A DNA stretch of 41,703 nucleotides, taken from positions 1-41,703 of the IMG/VR virus record IMGVR_UViG_3300044547_000338; one strand, 5' to 3'. This stretch comes from a virus. Below are positions 19,097 to 36,858 of the stretch, piece after piece. The notes beneath the pieces are model-generated. The model had not been told where the DNA came from, made no database searches, and saw nothing but the letters and a program-made list of their open reading frames with translations. Position 1 is the first letter of the stretch. Each line of letters begins with the position of its first letter. The translations under genes were made by a program, and so were the position numbers.

Positions 19097-19198
19097 TGCC
19101 CCAGAAATGGCCGTACAGCGGCATCCGCTGGTTCTCGGCTAGGGATACCGCCCAGAATCCAAACATAGGCCTGTACGGGCTTCTCTGAGGGATTCTCC
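19097..19198 (+). repeat. Structured ~100-nt repeat, copy A
   Basis: First of three copies. Shared blocks in order are TGCCCCAGAAATG, CTAGGGATACCGCCCAGA and GGGCTTCTCTG followed by GGATTC. In this copy AGAATCC pairs with GGATTCT across about 32 nt. Sequence between blocks varies between copies while pairing partners are kept, which suggests a folded RNA. Confidence 0.75.
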
Positions 19199-19306
19199 AT
19201 TGAGGTGATTCACACCCAAACAGCGTGTCCCCTGTCCTCGGACTACCCTCAGAGCCCGATAGATTCCCCAGCGGGGTCTTCAGCAACCCCTAGACATGCC
19301 CTCAGT

Positions 19307-19407
19307 GCCCCAGAAATGGCCGTACAGCGGGATCAGGAAGTCTCCGGCTAGGGATACCGCCCAGAAGGCCCTGATGGCTCTCCTTGGGCTTCTCTGTGGA
19401 TTCTGCT
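19307..19407 (+). repeat. Structured ~100-nt repeat, copy B
   Basis: Second copy, with TGCCCCAGAAATGGCCGTAC, CTCCGGCTAGGGATACCGCC, CAGA and GGGCTTCTCTG. It is preceded by AGACATGCCCTCAG, which is shared with copy C. A CCCC-AGC-GGGG hairpin lies 30 nt upstream (19267-19277). Confidence 0.75.
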
Positions 19408-19487
19408 GTTTGAGCCCGCCGGGTGTCCTTGGGATGTCCTTGGGTTGTCGGTGGGAGTCCTAGGGGTTCCTTAGGATATCCTGAGGA

Positions 19488-19845
19488 TAAGATATCCTTA
19501 GTTTATCTTGTTAGTATATCCTGTTAAGGAAAGACTGAGGTAAGTCCTAAGGATATCCTTAGGTTTATCCTAAGGAATTACGTAGAAAGGCTGACGCCTT
19601 TTTCAAGACCCTCAACTGTAGAATGTACCTAAGTCTATGATCTTACGATCATAATAGACCACACATTCAAGTTGGCTTCAGGGTCCTGAGGATATCCTTA
19701 GTTTAGGATATTTCGATAATATCCCACAATGAGGATAGACCTCAGAAGGCTTCAGATCGACGTGTTAGCGATCCGAGGTTTCCTTAACACGTTCCTCAGA
19801 TAGGTCCTAAATTTTGCTTCAAATATCCGAAGCCCTAAATACGCT
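19488..19845. repeat. Diverged ~350-bp duplication, unit 1
   Basis: Shares with unit 2 (20075-20395), in the same order: AT-rich ATATCC words, the identical 31-nt block at 19580-19610, the ATGATC-TTAC-GATCAT hairpin (19637-19652), GGTCCTGAGG with a GGATAT..ATATCC hairpin, and a block from 19804 (TCCTAAATTTTG..AAATATCCGAAGC..TACGC). Total divergence shows it is not the packaged terminal repeat, which would be identical. Confidence 0.75.
19586..19603 (+). terminator. Intrinsic terminator in duplication unit 1
   Basis: AAAGGC, TGAC loop, GCCTTT with T run to 19603. The hairpin lies within a 31-nt block (19580-19610) that is identical in unit 2, the best conserved part of the duplication, so it is under selection. 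It would stop transcription leaving the terminase end. Confidence 0.75.
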
Positions 19846-19904
19846 CCGGACGAGCGGCGATTCCCCCCATGGGGTCCTCGGTCACCCACCAGACATGCCC
19901 TCAG

Positions 19905-20004
19905 TGCCCCAGAAATGAGGCGTGAGGGGCCTTACAGATTCTCCGGCTAGGGATACCGCCCAGAGGGTCCTAATGCCGCTCCTCGGGCTTCTCTGGGGAT
20001 TCCA
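19905..20004 (+). repeat. Structured ~100-nt repeat, copy C
   Basis: Third copy, with TGCCCCAGAAATG, CTCCGGCTAGGGATACCGCC, CAGA and GGGCTTCTCTG. The part between the first two blocks is rewritten compared with A and B. Upstream is another CCCC..GGGG hairpin (19863-19874), as for copy B. Confidence 0.75.
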
Positions 20005-20074
20005 CGGTTTTGCCCTTGGTTGGCCCCCGGGTGCGTCCGTTGGGGAGACTGGAGGATGACAGAGGGATATCCTA

Positions 20075-20395
20075 ATGATTACTCCTGTTTTTGTATATCT
20101 TGTTTTTAATATCCTATTTGTTTAATCCTCAGTTATATCCTTAGTTAAACCTTCTGTTATACCCTTTGGGTATTCGTCTTTGATAACGTAGAAAGGCTGA
20201 CGCCTTTTTCAAGACCACCAACTGCAGATTATACCTAAGTATATGATCTTACGATCATCTTCATCAACGAGGAAGGTCCTGAGGTTTATCCTTAGAGAGG
20301 GATATTATCGATATATCCCAATCAGCGGATATCCAGCTAGATATCCTTATGGAGGGTCTAAATTTTGGTAAAAATATCCGAAGCACCTAATACGC
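20075..20395. repeat. Diverged ~350-bp duplication, unit 2
   Basis: Second unit, offset about 606 bp from unit 1. It holds the identical terminator block (20186-20216), the ATGATC-TTAC-GATCAT hairpin (20243-20258), a 7-bp GGGATAT..ATATCCC hairpin, and the block TCTAAATTTTG..AAATATCCGAAGC..TACGC (20355-20395). Confidence 0.75.
20192..20209 (+). terminator. Intrinsic terminator in duplication unit 2
   Basis: AAAGGC (20192-20197), TGAC, GCCTTTTT (20202-20209), identical to the unit 1 terminator including flanks. Confidence 0.75.
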
Positions 20396-20681
20396 CCACA
20401 GCGCCAGAGGCTTCCCCCCATAGGGGTCTCGGTCTCGGTCGACAAGGTCTTCGACCTTGGGAACATCATTTTGACCATCCTTAGGCGTTCATCTGGCACA
20501 CATTGGCGGCACATTGCATCGAATGCCATTGAATCCATTAGGTTTTGATTGCTCTATGTGTGCCATTGCCTAGGGTGACACCGGATGCCCTGTCCTATCG
20601 CCTAGGTCTATCCTATGCCCTGCCCTGCAGATGCCATGTCCTTGCTATGCCCTGCTAGTTTTGCCCTAGGTCAATCCACCG

Positions 20682-23543: not shown

Positions 23544-23945
23544 ATGAATACTACCGAGACCTTAGCGAGAAAGCTGCCGCACGATGGCGCGAAGCTTTTG
23601 ACCGAATGGACCGTCGCCTTGGCGTCAGTGGAAGCGACCCTGCCGGATCGGGTAACCCTTCGGCAGATGGAATTCTTTAGCGCCATCGCTCGCTCTATCA
23701 CCCGTGGCCACACGGTAACCCAGCAGTTAATCTTCGATGAATTCGAAGGGACTCTGGGCCGTAGCCTCACCAAGTCTGGCGCTCTGTTCTTCGAGCCCAG
23801 CCGCACGTACCCCGCAGCTCTCGGCTGGTTAAAGCTGGTCGAGAATCCTGATGATCGCCGGGAGAAATTCGTCCAGATCACCGAGCGTGGTCGGGCTGCT
23901 CTCTTGGTTATCATCGACATCATCCGGAGACTGAAAGCATCATGA
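23544..23945 (+). CDS. MarR-type winged-helix transcription regulator
   Basis: This 133-residue protein has the MarR layout: N-terminal dimer helix, a helix-turn-helix (about residues 39-85, LRQMEFFSAIARS..TVTQQLIFDEF.. then ..YPAALGWLKLVENP) and a wing ENPDDRREKFVQITERGRAAL (about residues 101-121) whose DDRR..ITERG pattern is diagnostic. AGGA precedes the ATG. Its stop overlaps the integrase start (ATGA), so both are made together. It is the best candidate for a lysogeny regulator, by position; its operator is not known. Confidence 0.8.
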   Translation: MNTTETLARKLPHDGAKLLTEWTVALASVEATLPDRVTLRQMEFFSAIARSITRGHTVTQQLIFDEFEGTLGRSLTKSGALFFEPSRTYPAALGWLKLVENPDDRREKFVQITERGRAALLVIIDIIRRLKAS

Positions 23946-25102
23946 ACCTGTACCAGAAGCCCAGTGGAATCTGGGTGATCGACTTCGTGAACGACGAAGG
24001 CAAGCGGGTCCGCCTGTCCACAGGTACCCGTGACGCAGCTGCTGCCAAGCGAGCTGCCCGCGAGCTTGTCTCGAAGCCTGTCCATGAGACACGGGCTGGT
24101 GGTCACAAGACTGAGCCATCCCGCACGATCACCTCGGGTACCATGAAGGACCTCTGGCGCAGGTGCTGCGTGGAAGTCTGGCCTGCCAACAAGGTGAGAT
24201 CGCAGGCGACCCTGCGGTCAAACCTCCGTGTCCTCGGGTCACTCCTGATAGACACCCCAAGGGGGAAGCTTCCAGTACAGGACGCCGCCGTCGAGGAAGT
24301 ATCCAACCTGAGAACCGTGGCTGACATTCAGGGTCAGCTGTTCGCTGCTGGCTATGCCCCCGGCACAGTCAAGCGCAAGATGGACACCCTGTCCCGCAGC
24401 CTACGTGCTGCCCAAGACTGGGGTATCATCCGCGATGTCCCCAAGAAACCCCCAGTCGGCCCCTCTGGTGTCCGCGAGCGTATCCTTGAGGATCACGAAG
24501 AGGCTGTCCTGTTCGACGTCCTCGCTGAGAAGATCAAGACCCAGCCTGCTGCCGATTGGTGGCGCTATCGGGCTCTCATTCGTTTCCTGCTGGACACTGG
24601 CTGCCGTCTGGGCGAAGCCCTTGCTGTGCGCCGTTCGTGGATCGAAGCGAAGCGTAAACCTGACGGGTCAAACTATCGGGTGCTAACGATACCCGCCAGT
24701 CACACCAAGGCAAACCGTTCGCGGACCCTGCCGCTGACTGACGACGTGGTGGCATCGATCAACACCCTGACTGAGCTGTCGCCTGACGACCGCCTGTTCC
24801 CCTTCAACAACGGCTTTGCGTGGTACCGTTGGGATACCCTGCGTGAAGCCATGCAGAAGCGTGGCTGCCCTATCGATGACGTCGTGCTGCATTCACTGCG
24901 GCATACCTGTCTGACCCGGCTGGCCAAGCGCCTGCCGATCCAGATCGTCAGCAAATGGGCTGGCCATGCTGACATCTCCATCACAGCTCGAGTGTACTCC
25001 CACCTGTCGGTCGATGACCTGCTCGGGGGGCTCGATGTTTTGAATAACAGTAACGCTGACATTGGAGATTCCACCATGACGGGGCTATCTGCGACTGGAT
25101 AG
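23942..25102 (+). CDS. int: Tyrosine site-specific recombinase (integrase)
   Basis: This 386-residue integrase starts with an arm-binding N-terminal domain (MNLYQKPSGIWVIDFVNDEG..RVRLSTGT, residues 1-45), then a core-binding domain and a C-terminal catalytic domain with the full residue set: R222 in DTGCRLGE, K256, H317 and R320 in LHSLRHTCLTRLA, H342 in WAGHADISITARVY and nucleophile Y352. Nothing is truncated, so integration and probably excision chemistry should be possible. It overlaps the MarR gene by four bases and is followed by a sequence matching a tRNA 3' end, a likely attP. Integrases just upstream of RNA polymerase are known in some marine T7-like phages. Confidence 0.95.
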   Translation: MNLYQKPSGIWVIDFVNDEGKRVRLSTGTRDAAAAKRAARELVSKPVHETRAGGHKTEPSRTITSGTMKDLWRRCCVEVWPANKVRSQATLRSNLRVLGSLLIDTPRGKLPVQDAAVEEVSNLRTVADIQGQLFAAGYAPGTVKRKMDTLSRSLRAAQDWGIIRDVPKKPPVGPSGVRERILEDHEEAVLFDVLAEKIKTQPAADWWRYRALIRFLLDTGCRLGEALAVRRSWIEAKRKPDGSNYRVLTIPASHTKANRSRTLPLTDDVVASINTLTELSPDDRLFPFNNGFAWYRWDTLREAMQKRGCPIDDVVLHSLRHTCLTRLAKRLPIQIVSKWAGHADISITARVYSHLSVDDLLGGLDVLNNSNADIGDSTMTGLSATG

Positions 25103-25146
25103 CCACAGCCTGAGCCAGTGAGTACCTTGTTTTTACAGGGGAAAAC

Positions 25147-25163
25147 TGGCGGAGGAGGAGGGA
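25147..25163 (-). other. Candidate attP core matching a tRNA-Ser 3' end
   Basis: The + strand TGGCGGAGGAGGAGGGA reads TCCCTCCTCCTCCGCCA on the - strand. That is T-loop base 60, T-stem CCCTC, acceptor strand CTCCTCC (partner GGAGGAG), discriminator G and CCA, the normal 3' end of bacterial tRNA-Ser. The rest of a tRNA is absent. It starts 45 bp after the integrase stop, the usual attP position. The match is strong in shape but only 17 bases long. Confidence 0.6.
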
Positions 25164-25205
25164 GCAGTCCTCTTCTGACTCATAAGGTTACACTACAAAA
25201 CTGTG

Positions 25206-25252
25206 GGTGTGACAACGGCACACCTTCACCCTGTGCCAATCATTGTCACACC
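25206..25252. promoter_or_regulatory. Nested inverted repeats before RNA polymerase gene
   Basis: Outer arms GGTGTGACAA (25206-25215) and TTGTCACACC (25243-25252) are perfect; inner arms GGCACA (25217-25222) and TGTGCC (25232-25237) are also perfect. Together they form a two-stage hairpin with a 9-nt loop, ending 41 bp before the polymerase start. The dyad may be an operator for the MarR-type regulator, an integrase/accessory site, or an RNA control element. Confidence 0.7.
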
Positions 25253-31710: not shown

Positions 31711-32341
31711 GTTCGGCCAGATCGTGACGGCGATTGAACATAAGGACTCTTGGTTAAAGACAGGCCGCTCGTACATGGTACTCGATTACTTCGAGCCATC
31801 CCAAGACGTTCTAGTCATTCTACGGGACGAAAGTGGAAATTCACCTCTCGGTGAAGCTGTCCGCGCACCAGCTAAGTTTGTATCGCCATCTATGTCGATC
31901 TCTGGGTGGCAAATGGCTTTGTCGTCAGCAGAGCCGATTTCAATTAACTCGACACCTAAGAAGCTGACCGCTGAAGACAGCGAAAACCCAAAGACTCAGT
32001 ATGGATTAGCCAAGCCTCCAATCGCCCTCATCCCAATGACGGCATTGATCGAAGAAGCCTGCACGTTCCGCCTCGGTGCCAAAAAATACGGACCTGCCAA
32101 CTGGCGGGATAAAGCCGTCCCGGCCTCAGTCTACATCAACGCCGCACTTCGACACATGCTGTCTTGGTACGACGGTCAGGACAATGACCTTGAATCCGGT
32201 GCATCGCATTTGGCTCATGCACGGGCCTGTCTGGCGATCCTGATCGACGCCAAGTGCTGCGACAAACTAATCGATGACCGACCGCCTGTCGGTAAGGGTC
32301 CTGACCTGTGCGCAGAAAGGACTGTATCAATCCCCACCTAA
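31703..32341 (+). CDS. dATP/dGTP diphosphohydrolase-like protein (DUF5664/MazZ-like)
   Basis: This 212-residue protein has two parts. Residues 1-~80 (MYKFGQIVTAIEHKDSWLKTG..) look like a short beta-barrel. The second half, KPPIALIPMTALIEEACTFRLGAKKYGPANW, then AALRHMLSWYDGQDNDLESGASHLAHARACLAILID, is the DUF5664 domain related to MazG-type NTP pyrophosphohydrolases, with acidic and His residues for metal binding. ATG 31703 has GGAG six bases upstream; ATG 31700 is too close to it. It would trim nucleotide pools for replication. No purZ-like gene is present. Confidence 0.75.
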   Translation: MYKFGQIVTAIEHKDSWLKTGRSYMVLDYFEPSQDVLVILRDESGNSPLGEAVRAPAKFVSPSMSISGWQMALSSAEPISINSTPKKLTAEDSENPKTQYGLAKPPIALIPMTALIEEACTFRLGAKKYGPANWRDKAVPASVYINAALRHMLSWYDGQDNDLESGASHLAHARACLAILIDAKCCDKLIDDRPPVGKGPDLCAERTVSIPT

Positions 32342-32354
32342 ACGGAGAAACCCT

Positions 32355-33735
32355 ATGAACGGAGACGAGATCGTCTGGGACATCGAGACCAATGGGTTCC
32401 TCGAAGAAATGACTACGATCCACTGCCTGAACACCATCAACGTGACGACCGGGCAGCGTCTCCGTTTCAATGGAGGCGTGTACGCTGATGGCACCCCCGC
32501 CTACCGGGACGGTACTATCGAGGAAGGCATCGCCCTTATTGAGAATAGCGGCTTATCTATCGGACATAACATCGTCCGGTTCGACATTCCCGGCGTTAGA
32601 AAACTGAACCCCAGTTTCCAACCAAAAGGGAAGATCAGAGACACCATGGTCATCTCCCGTCTTATCTGGCCCAACATGGGAGAGATCGACGCCAAAGCTA
32701 TGCGTGCTAATAAACGACCGCCTTCATTTTCCGGGGCTCATGTCGGTTCACATGCCTTGAAAGCTTGGGGATTTCGCCTCGGTGACTACAAGGGAGACTT
32801 TGAAGGGCCGTTCGACCTTTTTACCCAAGAAATGGACGACTACTGCGCCCAAGACGTCGAGGTAAACCTAAAGCTATGGCAGAAGATCAAGGAAAAGAAC
32901 TACTCCGAGGATGCTATTGAACTCGAAACTCGAGTTGCTGAGCTTATCTTCCTTCAAGAACAGAATGGATTTGTATTCAACATTCCTCTGGCAGAGAAGT
33001 TGACTGCCGAACTATCGCGCATCAGGGCCGAATTGGACGCCGAAGTTCGATCCTCGTTTGACCCTTGGTACTCCCCAGAACTCAAGCATGGTAAGCACGT
33101 CGTATTCTACCCGAAACGTCCAAACAAGGCCATGGGGTATGAAGTTGATGCCCCATTCACAAAGGTCAAGTTGAACGTATTCAACCCTAGCTCACGCGAT
33201 CATATCTCTGAACGCATGCAGGTGTTGTTCAACTGGGAGCCTGCGGAATTCACTGAAGGTGGCAAGCCGAAGGTCGACGAAACAACTCTGGCTAGTCTGC
33301 CGTACCCCGAAGCGAAACTGCTAGTGAAGTACCTGACTGTTCAGAAGCGCCTCAGTCAGTTGGCCGAGGGCGATAACGCATGGCTCAACCGGGTGCAGCC
33401 CGATGGTCGCATCCACGGGGCGGTAAACCCGATGGGAGCAGTTACCGGACGGATGACCCACTTTAGCCCGAATGTGGCTCAGGTGCCAAAATGTGGATCA
33501 CTGTGGGGTGCTGAGTGTCGAGAGCTATGGGGTCCCCGCGAAGGGTGGCTTCAGGTGGGCTGCGACGCTGAGGGCCTAGAGCTTCGAATGCTAGGTCATT
33601 ATCTGTTCCGCTATGACCAAGGGGCCTACGCCTTCAGCGTCGTTGACGGGAAGAAGGAAGATGAGACCGACGTCCACAACATGAACCGAAAAGCTATCGG
33701 CATGCGGATAAGGGACAACGCAAAGACTTTCATCT
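32355..33735 (+). CDS. DNA polymerase I-type (T7 gp5-like), exon 1
   Basis: Encodes residues 1-460 and the first base of codon 461. The 3'-5' exonuclease begins VWDIETNGF (D9, E11). The polymerase domain has motif A LQVGCDAEGLELRMLGHY (D404) and the start of motif B, RDNAKTFI (R453-I460, K457). Without splicing the frame would read S-M-G and stop at 33746, before the fingers and motif C. The start is ATG 32355 behind CGGAGAA. Joined to exon 2 the enzyme has 644 residues (T7: 704). Confidence 0.93.
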
Positions 33736-34423
33736 CAATGGGATGACTTGAGGGAAACCTCTCGATTAAAACTGTGTGAACTCAGGGAAACTCTCTCGCA
33801 GACAATCCTGAGCCAAGCTAGATAATCCAACGCTCTCCGAAACCCGGAGAACTAATGATAAAAACCGCCCAAGCGTTACAAAAAAGGACAGGTACTCCCG
33901 ATAAGTACCCTCAGAAATACTTCAAACCTAAATCGTGCCGTAAATGCGGAACTGAGTTTGAACCCCAAGCCCCTTCCCAGTTATTCTGCGGTCCGCCCTG
34001 TGCTATGCGTGCAGGTCAGGACAGATACTACCGTCGCTGCTATGGCATCGACGCAGATGAATGGGAATATATGTTCGCTAAACAGAACGGAGTTTGTTTC
34101 ATATGTGAAACAGAAGGCTTCGTGATGAAGGAAGAACACAAAGCAAAGCTCATGGTGGACCACTGCCACGTCACCGGGAAGGTACGCGGACTCCTCTGCC
34201 ATAACTGTAATCGAGCCTTAGGTCTATTGAAAGATAGCATTAAGGCGTTCCAACGGGCGTTGGATTATTTGGAAGGTGCAACGACTATCTCGCAAGGGAG
34301 TAGGGTCAAGTGACCCGAAGCGCACAGCCCCTTTAATAGGGTGATGATATAGTCTGGTCTTCATGGCGACATGAAGCTGCCGAAAGGCGGGGGAGGATTA
34401 ACGACCCTCCTCGAACATAAACG
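33736..34423 (+). ncRNA. Group I self-splicing intron in DNA polymerase gene
   Basis: Exon 1 ends in T and the intron ends in G, as group I chemistry requires. P1: exon TCATCT pairs with intron GGATGA, placing a U.G pair at the splice site. Core: GACAATCCTGAGCCAAGC (33801-33818) is a P4-type conserved stretch; P7 pairs GACTAT (34283-34288) with ATAGTC (34349-34354) in the typical ATGATATAGTCT context; P8 is GGGTC-AAGT-GACCC (34303-34316); P9 is CTTCATG-GCGA-CATGAAG (34359-34376) with a GNRA loop. Removal joins NAKTFI to YAFCYGAGKYKLG in frame. Confidence 0.93.
33855..34313 (+). CDS. Intron-encoded endonuclease VII-type homing endonuclease
   Basis: This 152-residue protein has the recombination endonuclease VII (His-Me finger) layout: zinc pairs CRKCG and FCGPPC at the N terminus, YGIDADEWEYMFAKQNGVCFICE, then LMVDHCHVTGKVRGLLCHNCNRALGLLKDS with the catalytic DHCH and structural Cys. 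CGGAGAA precedes the ATG. Its 3' end runs through the P7 and P8 strands of the intron core, so protein and ribozyme share sequence. It would cut intronless polymerase genes and spread the intron. Confidence 0.9.
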   Translation: MIKTAQALQKRTGTPDKYPQKYFKPKSCRKCGTEFEPQAPSQLFCGPPCAMRAGQDRYYRRCYGIDADEWEYMFAKQNGVCFICETEGFVMKEEHKAKLMVDHCHVTGKVRGLLCHNCNRALGLLKDSIKAFQRALDYLEGATTISQGSRVK

Positions 34424-34977
34424 ATGCATTCTGCTACGGAGCAGGAAAATACAAGCTAGGTACCATCATCCTAGACGATATGACTGAAGCGGCAAAAGAC
34501 GCTTTTTACGCCAAGTTCTCCACAAAGGAAGCACTTAACAAGGCAATCGTTCGACTAGGCGTTCGTGCCTACGAGAACATCATGCGTAACTTCCCAGCCC
34601 TAAAGAAGTTGAATGATCTCGTAGCTGCTAAGGCATCTCGGGGTTATCTGAAGGGGCTGGACGGACGGCAGATGCCTATCCGGTCCAAGCATGCCGCTCT
34701 TAACACCCTTCTCCAAGGCGGCGGCGCTGTCGTCATGAAGAAAGCTCTGGTCCTGTTCGACCAGAACATGGCTAAGGCGGGCTTCACTATGGACGTTGAT
34801 TTCGCATTACTCGCCAACGTGCATGACGAGTTTCAAGTCGAGTGCAGGCCAGATATTGCCCAACAAGTAGGCGAGATTGCAGCCGAAGCAATCCGACTAG
34901 CAGGTATCGCACTTGACCTGAAATGCCCGTTGGCCGGGTCATTTGATATCGGAAGAAACTGGAAAGAGACACATTGA
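34424..34977 (+). CDS. DNA polymerase I-type (T7 gp5-like), exon 2
   Basis: Begins with two bases of codon 461, then AFCYGAGKYKLGTIILDD, the second half of motif B (T7: NAKTFIYGFLYGAGDEKIG). It carries LKGLDGRQMPIRSKHAALNTLLQGGGAVVMKKAL and motif C LANVHDEFQVEC with H594, D595 and E596. Read alone it has no start codon near the splice site; the nearest ATG lies after motif B. The stop overlaps the next gene's TTG (TTGA). Confidence 0.93.
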
Positions 34978-36193: not shown

Positions 36194-36307
36194 ATGCGTA
36201 AAATCAAGAACCTCCTGACCGGGCTGGTCCTGTTCGTCTTCGGCTTCATCCTCTTGACGTTCGTCCGACTTCGCTTGTGGCTAAGTCCACCTGCGGGGTG
36301 GCGATGA
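36194..36307 (+). CDS. Very short membrane peptide after the spanins
   Basis: This 37-residue frame (MRKIKNLLTGLVLFVFGFIL, then LTFVRLRLWLSPPAGWR) has a positive start, one membrane segment (about residues 8-24) and a positive end. GAGG lies 8 bases before the ATG. Its stop overlaps the ATG of the homing endonuclease (ATGA). It may assist lysis, for example as a holin modulator, by position only. Confidence 0.5.
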   Translation: MRKIKNLLTGLVLFVFGFILLTFVRLRLWLSPPAGWR

Positions 36308-36858
36308 CTACCAGAAAGGTTATCGACCCTGAGCAGGTAAATAAACTGCTTCGATACGACAGTGAGTCAGGTAAGCTATTCTGGAGGTATCGAGACAGAA
36401 GTCTATTCAAATCACAAAGGGCGTACTCGATTTGGAATCGAAGGTACAAGGATCAAGAAGCGGGGTACCTCCACGTTTCCGGGTACATCATACTCGAGAT
36501 AAATCACTCCCCGTTCAAAGCTCATCGCATTGCGTGGGTGATCCAGACTGGAACTAATCCAGAGTCCGAAATCGACCACATTGATGGGGATAGAGCCAAT
36601 AACAGGTGGTCAAATCTTAGACCCGTCACTCCGGCTCAGAACAAGTGGAACTCCAAAACACGCAAGGCTCCTAACAAGACGTCACGATACAAAGGAGTCC
36701 ACCTTATTAAGAAGTCGAACCTCTGGAGGGCTAAGATACAGTCAAATAGCGCGGCGACGGAACTCGGACTTTTTCAGACCGAAGAGCTGGCCGCGAAGGC
36801 CTACGACGCAGCCGCGTATAGACTCTTCGGGGAATATGCCCGCGTAAACTTTCAATGA
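36304..36858 (+). CDS. HNH homing endonuclease with AP2 DNA-binding domain
   Basis: This 184-residue protein has an HNH core, AHRIAWVIQTG..EIDHIDGDRANNRWSNLRPVTPAQN (about residues 72-115), and a C-terminal AP2 domain, SRYKGVHLIKKSNLWRAKIQ..LGLFQTEELAAKAYDAAAYRLFGEYARVNF (about 129-183), the classic free-standing phage homing nuclease. ATG 36304 is favoured over an earlier in-frame ATG because it overlaps the preceding stop and keeps the full domain. Base composition is more A/T-rich than its neighbours, consistent with recent arrival. Confidence 0.9.
   Translation: MTTRKVIDPEQVNKLLRYDSESGKLFWRYRDRSLFKSQRAYSIWNRRYKDQEAGYLHVSGYIILEINHSPFKAHRIAWVIQTGTNPESEIDHIDGDRANNRWSNLRPVTPAQNKWNSKTRKAPNKTSRYKGVHLIKKSNLWRAKIQSNSAATELGLFQTEELAAKAYDAAAYRLFGEYARVNFQ

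Follow-up and report, generated by a model that had tools for sequence, protein, structure and literature searches.

A tRNA-Ser 3′ end beside the integrase gene as the probable attP core of an integrating T7-like podophage, with predicted hosts in Caulobacterales

We conclude with high confidence that the phage is an integrating T7-like podophage whose attP core is a 17-base sequence in the gap between the integrase and RNA polymerase genes, and that the bacterial counterpart of this core (attB) is the 3′ end of a host tRNA-Ser gene, most likely tRNA-Ser(CGA), in Caulobacterales. Target, junction point on the integrase side and orientation were observed in a related prophage remnant and not in the phage itself, for which we infer integration. 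T7-like phages were long regarded as strictly lytic; integrating members with tRNA attP sites are already known. This phage, its site and the turned orientation of the site within its family appear new, as far as our incomplete coverage of the literature goes. The result assigns an exact, testable site of integration and a group of hosts to a T7-like phage of which nothing but the sequence is known. In addition, it outlines a family of integrating T7-like phages from Caulobacterales and sphingomonads, for which tRNA-Ser is the usual target and in which the attP core occurs in both orientations with respect to the integrase.

The phage genome and its integrase region

The window, i.e., the whole stretch of DNA analysed, is a virus record of 41,703 bases with a G+C content of 55.3%. 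Profile searches identified a T7-type RNA polymerase (RNAP) together with T7-like replication and virion genes (primase-helicase, DNA polymerase, head-tail adaptor, scaffold, capsid and terminase). Because the scaffold gene lies at the end of the record and the capsid gene at its start, it is probably a permuted, near-complete genome; no terminal repeat of at least 12 bases was found in the window. A Group I intron (RF00028, E 6.7e-11) at 33724-34376 interrupts the family A DNA polymerase gene, whose exons lie within 32274-33746 and 34480-34977, and contains an Endonuclease VII-like ORF (33855-34313). Another ORF (36277-36858) carries HNH and AP2 domains and is a typical free-standing homing endonuclease. 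Approximately 1.5 kb (19190-20680) are free of plus-strand ORFs of 60 aa and include two (20494, 20558) of the four GTGTGCCA words of the window; this region is perhaps an early promoter or genome-end region.

The integrase gene lies close to the RNAP gene, in the order MarR-like gene, integrase, a gap of 191 bp and T7-like RNAP (Table 1). The complete integrase reported in the initial annotation was confirmed, as the protein is full length, matches PF00589 and has the R, K, H/R, H, Y set of tyrosine recombinases. R222, K256, H317, R320, H342 and Y352, which we take to be the catalytic residues of this enzyme class, are invariant in an alignment of three members, namely the window phage, the phage jiawei (OR464703) and the Caulobacter phage S2B (MN857473). 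The MarR-type regulator likewise holds as MarR-like by profile and fold: its family profile matches MarR-family structures (best E 1.5e-5), and its structure model (pLDDT 83) has the MarR fold, a winged helix with the D-x-R wing motif, with MarR proteins as top Foldseek matches, although global TM-scores reach only about 0.4-0.5 and the protein falls below the Pfam threshold (HTH_27, E 0.0076).

Table 1. Features of the integrase region (window coordinates)
Feature	Position	Strand	Details
MarR-like winged-helix regulator	23544..23945	+	overlaps integrase start by 4 bases
Tyrosine integrase, 386 aa	23942..25102	+	PF00589 E 3.6e-16; PHROG integrase E 1.2e-50
Stretch common to window and G657 remnant	24755..25163	+	C9:50770-51178; blastn 80.7% over 409 bp
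Conserved flank TTTTTACAGGGGAAAAC	25130..25146	+	next to CCA end of core; same motif in jiawei and, turned round, in S2B
attP core TCCCTCCTCCTCCGCCA	25147..25163	-	exact, once in window; 3′ end of tRNA-Ser
Nested inverted repeat GGTGTGACAA..GGCACA..TGTGCC..TTGTCACACC	25206..25252		perfect 10-bp arms
T7-like single-subunit RNA polymerase, 818 aa	25294..27750	+	PF00940 E 1.3e-109; PHROG 414 E 1.2e-233

The core sequence and its tRNA-Ser counterparts

The core begins 44 bases past the integrase stop, ahead of the RNAP gene, and comprises the last T-loop base, the T-stem, the acceptor strand, the discriminator G and CCA of a tRNA-Ser; in real tRNA-Ser genes, the T-loop remainder TTCGAA precedes these 17 bases. 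It has no second match in the window even when up to 3 mismatches are allowed. ARAGORN detected no tRNA gene in the window, and the remainder of the tRNA-Ser is absent. A candidate attP after the integrase had initially been placed at 25103-25200, with a tRNA-Ser 3′ end on the minus strand and the rest of the tRNA missing. All of this was borne out: the interval is part of the gap, the core could be narrowed to the 17-mer, and an attP matching a host tRNA adjoins the integrase.

A chance resemblance of a pyrimidine-rich 17-mer to a tRNA end was weighed as well, since the sequence has low complexity (19 of 100 window shuffles yielded 17-mers with at most 3 mismatches) and several exact matches in viral contigs fall outside tRNAs. 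The gap contains 17/17 bases of a tRNA 3′ end, compared with at most 12 in 1000 gap shuffles and at most 11 in the other 191-nt tiles of the window, a test that is not independent because its tRNA set was partly gathered with the 17-mer itself. Independent evidence comes from the distribution of the tRNA-Ser end among genomes and from the junction in the genome G657 (see below), which coincides exactly with the final base of the 17-mer and already refutes a chance match; the position after the integrase, as in relatives, speaks against it too. We therefore give this explanation practically no weight and retain the attP reading.

Bacterial tRNA-Ser genes with this end do exist. The pattern TTCRANTNNNNNCTCCTCCGCCA was searched in 150 sampled Caulobacterales genomes, with the reversed pattern as control, and occurred at 43 places in 42 genomes, compared with 1 match of the control. 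All but one of the 43 places read TTCGAATCCCTCCTCCTCCGCCA, and a tRNA-Ser end of the window type is present in 41 of the 150 genomes. ARAGORN assigned 19 checked Caulobacterales loci to tRNA-Ser(CGA) (L096-L103) or tRNA-Ser(TGA) (L104-L114); their G+C content, mostly 50-58% with one at 63%, is close to that of the phage. Among 385 alphaproteobacteria, the 23-mer was found in two genomes, one of them Caulobacterales, in both cases within tRNA-Ser(TGA). Two other host groups were dropped: Sphingomonadales, which harbour most of the prophages, with the 17-mer in 2/248 genomes and within a tRNA in only one of these, and Caulobacteraceae, with the 17-mer in 0/80 genomes. The site had been proposed to predict the host marker, and this claim stands in a narrower form, in that the predicted host group is Caulobacterales outside Caulobacteraceae, the latter being excluded by this search only. 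That the 17-mer is a relic of past integration, no longer used, appears very improbable: the phage is known from a virus record only, which leaves room for such a reading, but its integrase is full length with catalytic residues, and its core remains identical to the end of present-day host tRNAs.

An integrated relative and the proposed mode of integration

Among the 60 genomes from the family owning the CGA-type tRNA genes, the integrase family profile matched one, G657 (Caulobacterales; C9:50758-51096). The match directly adjoins a tRNA-Ser carrying the 17-mer (C9:51162-51184). The stretch shared with the window comprises the integrase end, the 44-bp spacer and all 17 core bases; integrase residues 269-387, i.e., the C-terminus, are 86.6% identical in protein. 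Similarity ends exactly at 25163, the last base of the 17-mer. Beyond it, the window reads GCAGTCC and G657 reads TTCGAACCC followed by the remainder of a tRNA-Ser(CGA), complete at C9:51162-51251 on the minus strand and thus in the predicted orientation. Per 50 bp, 36 or more positions are identical before the junction, and 20 and below after it. The element is a truncated remnant which retains the integrase-side junction only; nothing else of the prophage remains, and a further copy of the 17-mer was not found in the 60 kb examined. No integrase relatives were detected in the family whose tRNA-Ser is of the TGA type (105 genomes). An integrated form at the predicted site thus exists in a related remnant, joined exactly at the 17-mer and not elsewhere, and its target, integrase-side junction and orientation support the initial reading as an integrating T7-like phage.

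In the proposed mechanism, the integrase would recombine the 17-mer with the 3′ end of the host tRNA-Ser gene (attB). Since the phage itself carries a matching tRNA end, recombination would restore a complete tRNA gene at the integrase end of the prophage (int> <tRNA-Ser) and presumably leave another 17-mer copy at the RNAP end. After integration, the RNAP gene would end up at the other prophage end, and the MarR-like gene would come to lie about 40 kb from the polymerase. The nested inverted repeat is a candidate MarR operator, and binding of the MarR-like protein to it may silence the phage RNAP; since the repeat lies between the core and the RNAP gene, this candidate operator would stay with the polymerase in the prophage. 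GGCACAC/GTGTGCC-type words also occur in the gap of relatives, in some on both sides of the core, and the repeats could therefore be integrase arm sites instead. The conserved flank beside the CCA end is a possible integrase core/arm site. A precedent for the MarR-integrase operon is LUZ100, whose integrase and MarR-like regulator are cotranscribed (PMC10134795). LUZ100 and the Pasto / HTVC019P group resemble the window phage in being T7-like with an integrase near the RNAP, but LUZ100 and the pelagiphages are linked to tRNA-Leu (PMC10134795).

Integration at tRNA-Ser might also be only a transient step in an infection that is essentially lytic and yields no stable lysogens, as in T7-like cyanophages; we regard this as rather unlikely, though it is the alternative to which we give the greatest weight. 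In P-SSP7 and S-TIP37, an integrase is followed by an attP matching a host tRNA, and integration was demonstrated by experiment, but stable lysogens were not found (PMC8776855). These phages differ from the window phage in that a tRNA-Leu is targeted, about 39 bp match the first half of the gene, and the hosts are cyanobacteria. In line with transient integration, the sole close integrated relative found is the truncated remnant in G657. On the other hand, genomes of Caulobacter and Novosphingobium retain related prophages with both ends recognisable, and a MarR-like regulator sits ahead of the integrase. Intact relatives in isolate genomes are suggestive of stable lysogeny, a state that the window phage may share.

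Relatives and the orientation of the att core

The order MarR-like gene, integrase, RNAP recurs in jiawei, S2B and IMG/VR contigs. When the window integrase alone was used as query against viral contigs, no match was obtained; relatives there were found via an integrase alignment with jiawei and S2B. Searching viral contigs with the 17-mer revealed no relatives of the window phage, tblastn with the proteins of the window giving only weak portal and primase matches. Integrases of S2B and jiawei are 39-41% and their RNAPs 50-51% identical to those of the window phage. Like the window, both phages carry a tRNA-Ser-like end and, beside it, a similar flank between integrase and RNAP, a segment not annotated as att in their records, but the tRNA ends are different ones and that of S2B faces the opposite way. 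The S2B segment CCCACCCTGTCCGCCA was found in 21 of 41 genomes of the genus of Caulobacter sp. D5 and is a tRNA-Ser(TGA) end at 4/4 loci examined in this genus. For jiawei, the attB candidates, tRNAs which match at the acceptor, differ in the T-stem. The recorded host of this "Mycobacterium phage jiawei" (L030, OR464703) is Mycolicibacterium smegmatis, yet its integrase and RNAP group with those of alphaproteobacterial phages and prophages; this host label should be checked.

Scanning genomes with the RNAP alignment yielded 13 loci in Caulobacter and sphingomonads, and the att repeats of five integrated members were read by comparing both prophage ends. Direct repeats of 19, 20 and 15 bp lie at tRNA-Ser(CGA) in Caulobacter sp. 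D5, Novosphingobium umbonatum and N. meiothermophilum, respectively, one of 14 bp at tRNA-Ser(GGA) in contig L041 and one of 13 bp at tRNA-Pro(GGG) in N. lindaniclasticum. The four named prophages thus share with the window a related RNAP and integrase and have 13-20 bp repeats at tRNA 3′ ends, but their RNAPs are only about 46-52% identical, and hosts and tRNA genes are different. In L033 and G676, the integrase faces an intact tRNA-Ser(GCT); in Sphingopyxis flava, a 13-bp repeat lies at a place without a tRNA. A degraded prophage copy in a Sphingomonadaceae MAG (L072 10001-12758) lies at tRNA-Ser(CGA) and has 14-bp repeats at its two ends; RNAP and integrase fragments are fused beside the tRNA gene, i.e., the prophage collapsed by internal deletion.

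Unexpectedly, the tRNA end is turned the opposite way relative to the integrase in about half of the relatives. The integrase side bears the rebuilt tRNA, actual or expected, in the window, G657, jiawei, L033, G676, N. meiothermophilum and the MAG, and the RNAP side bears it in S2B, L041 and, unlike the window, three of the four Caulobacter and Novosphingobium prophages (Caulobacter D5, N. umbonatum and N. lindaniclasticum). At least two changes of orientation are required on a tree built from 18 integrase sequences, also when only well-supported branches are used, in a small sample of 10 scored rows, with L032 scored by resemblance only. In S2B, the flank TTTT..AGGGG beside CCA seems to turn with the core. 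It is conceivable, though we would not favour it at present, that within one integrase family the attP core was turned relative to the integrase at least twice together with its flank, as a comparison of S2B with jiawei suggests, and that the att segment is an exchangeable or invertible cassette. If so, such a cassette would let phages retarget between tRNA-Ser isoacceptors (once to tRNA-Pro) and would change which prophage end bears the rebuilt tRNA.

Other viral contigs (L002/L019, L003 and L014) carry the tRNA-Ser end at an edge. L002 and L019 belong to one 43-kb viral contig (IMGVR_UViG_3300020417_000001) with TCGAATCCCTCCTCCTCCGCCATTT near both ends; these are probably att copies derived from this tRNA-Ser end, flanking a different element.
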